64,000 nucleotides of DNA from an uncultured Clostridia bacterium (lineage in GTDB: Bacteria > Bacillota > Clostridia > Lachnospirales > CAG-274): assembly GCA_947624015.1 (NCBI GenBank), contig CANQIA010000007.1:1-64000 (forward strand), written 5' to 3'. A program made the position numbers and the translations under genes. The notes below the pieces were generated by a model. That model was given only the letters and a program-made list of their open reading frames with translations, was not told the origin of the DNA and searched no databases. Shown here in pieces: positions 834 through 40,426 of the stretch (the stretch's first letter is position 1; each line of letters starts with the position of its first letter).

Positions 834-882
834 GCGTGTGGATAAAATCGACACGCATGAAAGAAATGCTTGCATTTTTTTA
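834..882 (+). repeat. Fragment (copy D) of the dispersed hairpin element
   Basis: Two adjacent hairpins: GCGTGT...ACACGC (834-856) and GAAAGAAATGC-TT-GCATTTTTTT (859-881). These match the two outermost hairpins of the longer copies near 11757, 19448 and 34575-34596, but the rest of the element is absent. It sits between two convergent genes. Confidence 0.6.
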
Positions 883-11747: not shown

Positions 11748-11756
11748 AAATGTCTT

Positions 11757-11970
11757 GAAAGAAATGCTTGCATTTCTTTCAGTTTAATTAAAGTCGGAAC
11801 CAGCCGTGTTTTCTGCAATTTAGGCATAAATGCCTAAATTACAGAAAAGTTCCTGTCCTCGGAGGAAGTGAATTCCTCCTGCGGATTAAAGTCTGCGACG
11901 CTTTTTTGCAAGCTGTTCATCATTTTAATTCATGTTTACTGTCAAAATATTGTTTTTTCGACAGTCTGAA
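11757..11970 (+). repeat. Dispersed hairpin element, copy A (fills trpA - activase gap)
   Basis: This 303-bp gap has no gene. It carries, in order, hairpin GAAAGAAATGC/GCATTTCTTTC (11757-11780, also a likely trpA terminator with AGTTTAATT after), a mismatched long hairpin (11810-11847), hairpin GGAGGAA/TTCCTCC (11861-11879), the invariant core (11880-11899), GCTTTTTTGCAAGCTGTT, and the end hairpin CTGTC...GACAG (11939-11964). Copies at 19448 and 34268 have the same order but different stem sequences. Copy A lacks the GCATTAC/GTAATGC module of the other two. Confidence 0.75.
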
Positions 11971-11971
11971 A

Positions 11972-12012
11972 TGGGCTGAGAGCAAATGTTGTTTGCTCTC
12001 AGCCCATTTTAA
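11972..12012 (-). terminator. Hairpin ending the activase transcription unit
   Basis: Stem TGGGCTGAGAGCAAA with its complement (14-15 bp, loop TGTTG region), followed on the minus strand by TTTC and on the plus strand by TTTTAA. It lies between the stop of the minus-strand gene at 12051 and repeat copy A. Confidence 0.65.
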
Positions 12013-19400: not shown

Positions 19401-19447
19401 GGTATTTGGGAAAACAAGAGTTTGACAGACCGCAATGAGGTGTTTTT

Positions 19448-19712
19448 ATCGATACGCTTGCAAGAAATGCCTTACGACATTTCTTGCAGATATTCGGGTA
19501 TAAAAATATTGAGCTTTACGAAAGCCAATTTATGGCTTTCTAAGCTCAAATTTTTTCCTCAGGCGGGCAAAGCTCGCCTTGCGGATTAAAGTCTGCGACA
19601 CGGATGCATGGCGAGCAGCATTACAAAGTAATGCGACCAGCGCTTTTTTGAAAGCTGTTCTTTACTTAAAATCTATATTTTCTTTCAAAATATTGTTTTT
19701 TCGACAGTCTGA
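19448..19712 (+). repeat. Dispersed hairpin element, copy B
   Basis: Occupies the 410-bp gap between proS and the SHOCT/LEA-like gene; no protein gene is there. Modules: GCAAGAAATG/CATTTCTTGC (19460-19487), TGAGCTT.ACGAAAGCCA/TGGCTTTCT.AAGCTCA (19510-19548), GGCGGGC/GCTCGCC (19562-19578), core of 20 nt (19580-19599), GCATTAC/GTAATGC (19618-19634), GCTTTTTTGAAAGC, and the closing TTTTTTCGACAGTCTGA (19697-19712). Nearly identical to the reverse-oriented copy C at 34268-34598. Confidence 0.8.
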
Positions 19713-19738
19713 GGGGCTGTCTTGTCAACAGCCCCTCT
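19711..19738 (-). terminator. Hairpin after the SHOCT/LEA-like gene
   Basis: Stem GAGGGGCTGT/ACAGCCCCTC with a 7-nt loop, directly between the stop at 19748 and copy B. T-tract is poor on both strands, so termination strength is uncertain. Confidence 0.5.
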
Positions 19739-19747
19739 TATTGTTTA

Positions 19748-20236
19748 TTATTCAGTCTTATCCTTGATATCCTCGGCAATATCCTCAGCCTTATCCTTTA
19801 CGTCCTCGGCAATATCCTCAGCCTTATCCTTTATGTCCTCGGCTTTGTCCTTAACAGCCTCGGCAATGTCCTCCGCCTTTTCTTCGACTACCTCTACTTT
19901 ATCTGTGATATCCTCGGCAGCCTCGCTTACAGGCTCTGCCACAACGTCGTTGTTAAAGTCGGCTTTGCGTGGTCTGTTCTTTATTTCAGTTACCTTTACG
20001 CCTATTACGTCGGCTGACTTTTTGGCGCCCTCGGCAATGCCGCCGGCAACGGTCTTTGCCATATTGGCAGCCTTCTTAACAACGGGCTTTGCATCCTTTG
20101 TAAGAGATGATAGCTTTTCCTTCACATCGGAAAAAGCGCTGCCGCTGTTCATGGCGCTCATAAGCTTAACGGCGTCGTCAGCCGTTATCTTTCCGTCTTC
20201 AACCATTTTCAGAATTGCCATTTTTTCTTCTTTCAT
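19748..20236 (-). CDS. SHOCT-like helical protein with LEA-type 11-mer repeats
   Basis: 162 residues, RBS AAAGGAGG. The N terminus (EEKMAILKMVEDGKITADDAVKLMSAM) is a SHOCT-like/YvlB-type short helical domain. The middle (residues 35-75) is Lys/Ala-rich. The C terminus (from ~115) is a tandem amphipathic 11-residue repeat of the form KAEDIAEDVKD, interrupted once by a 7-mer KAEDIKD, highly charged and alanine-rich like LEA or apolipoprotein helices. At DNA level the repeat is near-exact with a 33-bp period. Possible membrane-surface or desiccation/stress role is inference only. It begins 34 nt after the plsC stop, so the two form one operon. Confidence 0.7.
   Translation of the reverse strand: MKEEKMAILKMVEDGKITADDAVKLMSAMNSGSAFSDVKEKLSSLTKDAKPVVKKAANMAKTVAGGIAEGAKKSADVIGVKVTEIKNRPRKADFNNDVVAEPVSEAAEDITDKVEVVEEKAEDIAEAVKDKAEDIKDKAEDIAEDVKDKAEDIAEDIKDKTE
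19755..19850 (-). repeat. 33-bp in-frame tandem repeat
   Basis: The unit TCCTCGGCAATATCCTCAGC (plus-strand beginning) with CTTATCCTTTA following recurs at a 33-bp spacing, encoding KAEDIAEDVKD. Such near-identity invites length variation between strains. Confidence 0.7.
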
Positions 20237-34147: not shown

Positions 34148-34247
34148 TAAAAAGAATAGTGTAGGTTTTGGAAGAAGAATAGCGGGGCTGAGGCGGAAAG
34201 GTAGGCGCAATAATAACACAAGTATTTTTGAAATAGCTATAAGCTAA

Positions 34248-34265
34248 AGCTCCCCTATCAGGGGA
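34248..34265 (+). repeat. 18-nt direct repeat, left flank of element C
   Basis: AGCTCCCCTATCAGGGGA, identical to 34599-34616. The two brackets enclose copy C exactly, as if C had inserted into (or moved with) the GGGGAG-type repeat. Confidence 0.7.
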
Positions 34266-34267
34266 AC

Positions 34268-34598
34268 TCAGACTGTCGAAAAAACAATATTTTGAAAGAA
34301 AATATAGATTTTAAGTAAAGAACAGCTTTCAAAAAAGCGCTAGTCGCATTACTTCGTAATGCTGCTTGCCATGCATCCGGGTCGCAGACTTTAATCCGCA
34401 AGTTTGCAACCGCAAGAGAGTAATGCGGCTTGCTTTGCGAAGCAAAGTTGCTGATTGAGCTTTGCCCGCCTGAGGAAAAAATTTGAGCTTAGAAAGCCAT
34501 AAATTGGCTTTCGTAAAGCTCAATATTTTTATACCCGAATATCTGCAAGAAATGTCGTAAGGCATTTCTTGCAAGCATGTCGATTTATCGACACGCAG
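34268..34598 (-). repeat. Dispersed hairpin element, copy C
   Basis: On the minus strand this repeats copy B module for module: hairpin GCGTGTCGATAAATCGACATGC (34596-34575), GCAAGAAATG/CATTTCTTGC, TGAGCTT...AAGCTCA, the invariant core (34400-34381), GCATTAC/GTAATGC, and the closing TTTTTTCGACAGTCTG. It has about 45 extra bases beside the core, including GCATTACTCTCTTGCGG and TTTGCTTCGCAAAGC (a perfect palindromic hairpin). With the flanking repeats it fills the 695-bp gap between the pectin genes; no protein gene is there. Confidence 0.8.
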
Positions 34599-34600
34599 AG

Positions 34601-34677
34601 CTCCCCTATCAGGGGAGCTGTCAGCCCTTGGCGATAAGTCGTATGAAATTTACTTTGAGTGGGGCTGACTGAGAGGT
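34601..34677 (+). repeat. Second repeat family (GGGGAG-type), copy 2
   Basis: CTCCCC-TATCA-GGGGAG, then CTGTCAGCCC ... GGGGCTGAC and TGAGAGGT. Same two-hairpin layout as 34099-34147 in opposite orientation, with a longer second loop. Confidence 0.7.
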
Positions 34678-37934: not shown

Positions 37935-38204
37935 ATCAATAAGGTAACACTATGATAAGGAGCAGTAAGTTAAAAAGGACTTTCAGAGAGTCGGCGGTAG
38001 GTGTAAGCCGATATTCCGATTTGACCGAACTCGCCTTTGAGTGGTCGCGCTGAACAAACAGTAGGTGCGAACGGAAGCTCACCGATAGAGGAGCAGGGTA
38101 TCGGCACAGTCCCGTACCTGTAGAGTGCATTAATTTTTATTAATGAATTAGAGTGGTACCACGGAGTATATCTTCGTCTCTTGGAGGAGACGGAGATTTT
38201 TTTA
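37935..38204 (+). ncRNA. T-box leader (leucine) of leuA
   Basis: Stem I with GAGCAGTAAG (GA motif, ~37960), AGAGAGTCGGCGGTAGGTGTAAGCCG (terminal loops), and specifier CTC at 38030-38032 in CCGAACTCGCC, a leucine codon. The canonical T-box block AGAGTGGTACCACGG is at 38149-38164; its TGGT (38154-38157) pairs with ACCA of tRNA-Leu. Uncharged tRNA-Leu(GAG) should allow read-through into leuA. Confidence 0.92.
38170..38204 (+). terminator. Attenuator terminator of the leuA T-box
   Basis: ATCTTCGTCTC/GAGACGGAGAT stem (one G-T pair) with loop TTGGAG, followed by TTTTTTT. Confidence 0.9.
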
Positions 38205-40177: not shown

Positions 40178-40426
40178 TTGTGACATTAAGAGCGTAGATG
40201 CAGAAGGTTGCTGTAACGCTGATAAACACATAGGTTTTACAGGTTTTTCTGCGGAGCAATGTCCAGGTCAAGACACCGGGCGACAAGGTCACTGTGCGGA
40301 TATATTTGTGTGTGGAATCAAGAGCGAAAGCTCGGGAGTTGCAAAGAGGAAACACACGGATGAGTGTACAGTCACCACTTGTCGTGCTAAGATTTTTAAA
40401 AGTACGAAAAGGAGGCGACTTTTTTT
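40178..40426 (+). ncRNA. Structured leader of the S10 operon
   Basis: Roughly 250-nt untranslated leader. Nested pairing: GGTCACTGT (40287-40295) with ACAGTCACC (40368-40376, one mismatch), GTGTGT (40308-40313) with ACACAC (40352-40357), and GAGC-GAAA-GCTC (40322-40333), a GNRA-capped hairpin. An upstream AGCGT...ACGCT hairpin is at ~40190-40219. S10 leaders in other bacteria are bound by L4 for autogenous control; that this one is, is inference. Confidence 0.55.

Follow-up and report, generated by a model that had tools for sequence, protein, structure and literature searches.

The window analysed here (64,000 nucleotides, from the start of contig CANQIA010000007.1 of an uncultured Clostridia bacterium) contains several copies of a hairpin-rich intergenic repeat, which raises the question of whether the repeat is mobile DNA, a structured RNA, or one carried by the other. 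Three copies (A, B and C) and a fragment (D) described in an earlier note were recovered at the places given there (Table 1). The genome-wide search that the note proposed revealed a larger family than first reported. The 20-nt core TGCGGATTAAAGTCTGCGAC has 41 matches in the 1.95 Mb genome (at most 2 mismatches, both strands) and its reversed control has none; a covariance model of stem P4 and the core likewise returned 41 copies. Within the window the core occurs three times, against 0.01 expected from shuffles. We conclude that the repeat is very probably a non-autonomous IS1182-type MITE; this judgment concerns the element as mobile DNA and does not extend to the role of its interior.

Table 1. 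Positions of the element copies, their modules and the flanking hairpins in the window.
Feature	Position	Strand	Remarks
Copy A	11755..11969	+	retains the type-A interior and the right end; has lost the P1 palindrome (left end) and the left copy of the terminator
A, stem P2 (TGAAAGAAATGC/GCATTTCTTTCA)	11756..11781	+	covaries across genera
A, long stem P3 (GGAAC...GTTCC), conserved CCAGCCGTG	11796..11853	+
A, stem P4, 19 nt, GGAGGAA/TTCCTCC	11861..11879	+	preceded by invariant CCTC
A, invariant 20-nt core	11880..11899	+	hairpin GCGGA/TCTGC
A, right terminal inverted repeat TTTTTTCGACAGTCTGA	11953..11969	+	IS1182-like
A, terminator hairpin at right end	11970..12008	+	surviving copy of the presumed duplicated target
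Copy B	19447..19712	+	type-B interior and optional module at about 19597-19643; left end partly preserved
B, core	19580..19599	+
B, terminator hairpin at right end	19713..19735	+
Copy C, complete element	34268..34596	-	P1 34575-34596; right terminal repeat 34268-34284
C, left copy of duplicated terminator hairpin (AGCTCCCCTGATAGGGGAGCTCT)	34597..34619	-
C, right copy of duplicated terminator hairpin (GTTCCCCTGATAGGGGAGCTTT)	34246..34267	-
C, inserted hairpin module between P4 5' arm and core	34401..34456	-	recurs in other copies
C, core	34381..34400	-
Fragment D, left end only (P1 834-856 and P2)	834..882	+	directly after terminator hairpin 812-829

Full copies measure about 215-400 bp and keep a fixed order of modules: the P1 palindrome (GCGTGTCGATAAAATCGACACGC), the P2 hairpin, the long P3 stem (with CCGTG in type A), CCTC, P4 (19 nt), the core hairpin, an AT-rich tail and the right end TTTTTTCGACAGTCTGA. 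They start with (CA)GCGTGTCGATAAAA and finish with TTTTTTCGACAGTCTGA, whose reverse complement is TCAGACTGTCGAAAAAA, and so carry imperfect terminal inverted repeats. The contrary statement of the earlier note was wrong, probably because copy A is devoid of P1 and copy B retains only part of it. Its description of B and C as nearly identical is accurate except for the 56-nt module inserted in C, and A does differ from B by other stems at the same places, exchanged as whole modules. No ORF was found inside the element, which excludes it as an autonomous IS1182 copy; among the ORFs located within 2.5 kb of the copies, only element-overlapping frames and ordinary host genes recurred. The 41 short, noncoding copies thus have neither a recurring transposase nor an element-specific ORF in their vicinity, and they combine the imperfect inverted repeats with a target duplication, as expected for a MITE. 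Short tandem 33-nt repeats lie directly to the right of copy B (19752-19925). Elsewhere in the window we observed a T-box leader (37943-38184) and an S10-Clostridia ribosomal protein leader (40187-40286).

The target was deduced from the flanks, which were compared by a local alignment score with a threshold of 15. Where both ends of a copy could be located, it is in most cases flanked on each side by the same terminator hairpin, which is specific to the locus. In the own genome, direct-repeat flanks scoring at least 15 were found for 23 of 33 such copies, while mismatched pairs reached 13 at most; these repeats measure 17-36 nt. In the comparison across genera, flank repeats reaching the threshold were present in 80 of 143 copies, versus 3.7% of the control pairs. 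In the window, the hairpin duplication is seen at the flanks of copy C (AGCTCCCCTGATAGGGGAGCT / AGTTCCCCTGATAGGGGAGCT). Orthologous sites that are empty were also found in related species. Locus L204 has the single hairpin AAGACTGCTGCGGCAGTCTT, and the same hairpin stands on each side of the element at L201. The pair L062/L168 gives the same empty and occupied pattern with a diverged hairpin; in the pair L221/L234 the element is absent and one different terminator hairpin is present. At a further locus (L176/L157) two species share the element in one position, indicating that some insertions are old. Insertion into stem-loops or terminators, the target habit of IS1182, is also that of the element. 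Together with the IS1182-like ends, the duplicated hairpin and the empty sites favor the non-autonomous mobile element among the options that had been considered in the note, and mobility appears well supported at the sequence level.

Besides fragment D, the genome contains about ten solo left ends (C1:95923, C2:141623, C6:18006, C8:79532, C10:24065, C11:54559, C12:33908, C16:30425, C18:23128 and C38:6383). In each case a terminator is followed directly by P1, usually with P2, and then by unrelated sequence; neither the right end nor a second hairpin was seen. Many of them are truncated after P2 but before P3 begins.

Among the genomes sampled, the element is restricted largely to one bacterial family. 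Of 37 genomes sampled from this family, 25 had core matches; the sampled genomes of the other families of the order had none. The covariance model, another check that the note had named, detected copies in 28 of the 37 and gave seven further, weak matches in a single genome from another family. The exact P4-core pattern was found in two genomes of a class-wide draw of 391, both from the own genus. Among the named carriers are Chakrabartyella piscis, Candidatus Gallispira and rabbit-gut Clostridia assemblies. One weak model match (L330), possibly from the single other family with matches, keeps CCTC-P4-TGCGGATTAAAGT and has a different 3' part. A scan of viral contigs with the exact core identified one IMG/VR contig (L253), which holds a copy of the core and the fold.

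The ends of the element resemble those of autonomous IS1182 elements from the same genus and from C. piscis. A genome of the same genus (G003) encodes a full IS1182 transposase, scoring 417 bits against a curated cut-off of 270, and C. piscis has 11 transposase copies above the curated cut-off. In G003 the IS1182 ends read CAGTCTGTCAATAAA / (reverse complement of TTTTTTGACAGACTG), and in C. piscis they read CAGACTGTCAAAAAAG / CAGACTGTCAAAGAACC; the right end of the MITE reads CAGACTGTCGAAAAAA on the other strand and resembles them. Every C. piscis IS1182 copy inspected has a terminator hairpin at both ends, mostly as identical copies. In G003 (L254, C1:106940-111241) an autonomous IS1182 and a MITE are inserted in one terminator, and three hairpin copies separate and bound the two. 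Several observations count against this account. No IS1182 transposase was found in the own genome (a draft, 95.8% complete), nor in several other copy-rich genomes. The left end of the MITE, CAGCGTGTCGATAAAA, is a weaker and imperfect match to the IS end. The element copies inspected in C. piscis have no left end, and a P1-like palindrome pattern gave no match in that species. IS1634 was also considered as a partner, being suggested by long variable duplications and similar ends (PMC2266710); it is absent from the genus, and the ends and targets of IS1182 fit better.

We propose that an IS1182-family transposase would act in trans on the ends CAG..TGTCGA..AAAA and direct insertion to the foot of an intrinsic-terminator hairpin that has been extruded. 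If the two strands are joined at opposite feet of the hairpin, repair would duplicate the hairpin as a whole. The host gene would then be left with a terminator on each side, and the insertion would probably be neutral. The ends, the duplicated hairpin, the empty sites and the existence of IS1182 elements that resemble the MITE in their ends and share its target habit can be read directly from the compared sequences; action in trans and the geometry of strand transfer are what we infer from them.

A conserved interior across genera is unusual for a MITE and is not predicted by the MITE account, since a selfish MITE needs its ends only. P4 occurs as 32 distinct sequences that keep 6-8 of 8 pairs. 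The covariation score of an alignment of 33 sequences was higher than in any of the 500 shuffles or of the slid controls. Covariation was found again with 24 distinct sequences including further genera, in an alignment that was fitted to the model and hence leans towards structure. Compensatory changes were present in 27 of 48 pairs (11-sequence alignment). Point covariation between genera is real, but the differences between A and B, which the note had compared, are module swaps and not point compensations. Whole hairpin modules are exchanged en bloc, and additional ones have been inserted at several points. One secondary structured module, about 50-70 nt in length, recurs at different positions within loops or junctions of the element, as if nested (L073, L096, L098, L232, L063 and 34401-34456 in copy C of the window). 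Among own-genome copies, located via the core with at most 3 mismatches, diversity is 0.012 in the core versus 0.233 in the tail, a difference of about 20-fold. Whole-element BLAST yielded no right halves with a decayed core, so that search bias alone is unlikely to explain the invariance. These data point to P2, P3, CCTC, P4 and the core hairpin as a conserved fold under constraint, and selection on structure, as the note had suggested, is supported by them, with the caveat on hairpin repair discussed below.

What the constraint serves can be read in several ways. The interior might be a functional RNA of the host or the element (a small RNA or a protein-binding 3' RNA), spread by the IS1182 ends, with transcription arising from its own promoter or as read-through. 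This would be compatible with the MITE account, as it concerns the interior, and we regard it as a serious though not a probable possibility. The covarying fold, the invariance of the unpaired CCTC and core, an invariant G.U pair in the core on the + strand, and a core and ACCAGCCGTG motif that stay nearly invariant while the tail diverges all argue for it, as does the occurrence of the interior with differing ends in other genera. However, P4 has no G.U preference over A.C (cells 10 vs 15), the orientation bias relative to genes is weak (left gene co-directional in 70 of 112 cases, right gene in 57 of 112), and Rfam contains no family matching the element, also at relaxed thresholds. The same lack of strand preference in P4 is what would be expected if self-templated repair of the DNA (quasipalindrome correction) maintains the hairpins, in which case the covariation would not reflect structural selection. 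Duplicated terminators do carry compensated changes inside the hairpin (in the own genome, L003, CCCTAGGG vs CCTTAAGG, L024 and L068), which suggests either hairpin repair or selection for both terminators. Such self-correction could be the source of part of the covariation; it cannot account for the invariant core, CCTC and CCGTG, nor for the module order retained across genera, and as the whole explanation it is unlikely.

Hairpin-rich intergenic repeats would also be expected of a REP-like element mobilised by a Y1 (RAYT-type) transposase, and Y1 transposases exist in some genomes of the family, including the own one. Yet the copy-bearing genomes G007, G019, G022 and G023 have no Y1 transposase, so this enzyme does not occur wherever the copies are and was rejected as partner. 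The long hairpin target duplication, which largely refutes this reading, and the DDE-type terminal repeats do not fit it either, leaving it with hardly any probability. We return to the IS1182-type MITE and its constrained interior. Our best guess is that the interior most likely serves the propagation of the element itself, and that it does so by binding a protein, either as folded RNA or in the form of single-stranded DNA. That it is an RNA or single-stranded-DNA component of the IS1182 transposition system kept across the bacterial family, for example a transposase cofactor or a target-finding structure, is in our estimate rather improbable.

Members of the IS1182 family, including IS1272, are known to target stem-loops, often terminators (PMC4923244, PMC5678879), and the element resembles them in this target and in its ends. 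In staphylococci, IS1272 and TnSha1 delete the hairpin or replace it (PMC4923244, PMC5678879), whereas the element duplicates the whole hairpin and contains no transposase gene; duplication of the whole stem-loop was drawn as a hypothetical pathway b (PMC5678879). IS1182-related MITEs of 160-169 bp, with ISMac2 as partner, are tabulated for Methanosarcina acetivorans (PMC3852290). They are likewise short, multicopy, non-autonomous IS1182 derivatives, but PMC3852290 lists no whole-hairpin duplication for them, and the present element differs also in its large conserved folded interior common to several genera. The BOX and SPRITE repeats of pneumococcus (PMC10969869), compared by description and as a lead only, are similarly folding intergenic repeats thought to be mobile. 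No earlier description of the element was found in the literature searched.

These loci provide many natural cases, autonomous and non-autonomous, in which structure-guided insertion leads to duplication of an entire terminator hairpin; in the literature consulted for comparison this route is drawn as a hypothesis for IS1182-family transposases (PMC5678879). The main point of interest is the conserved folded module that mobile DNA carries throughout a family of gut bacteria.
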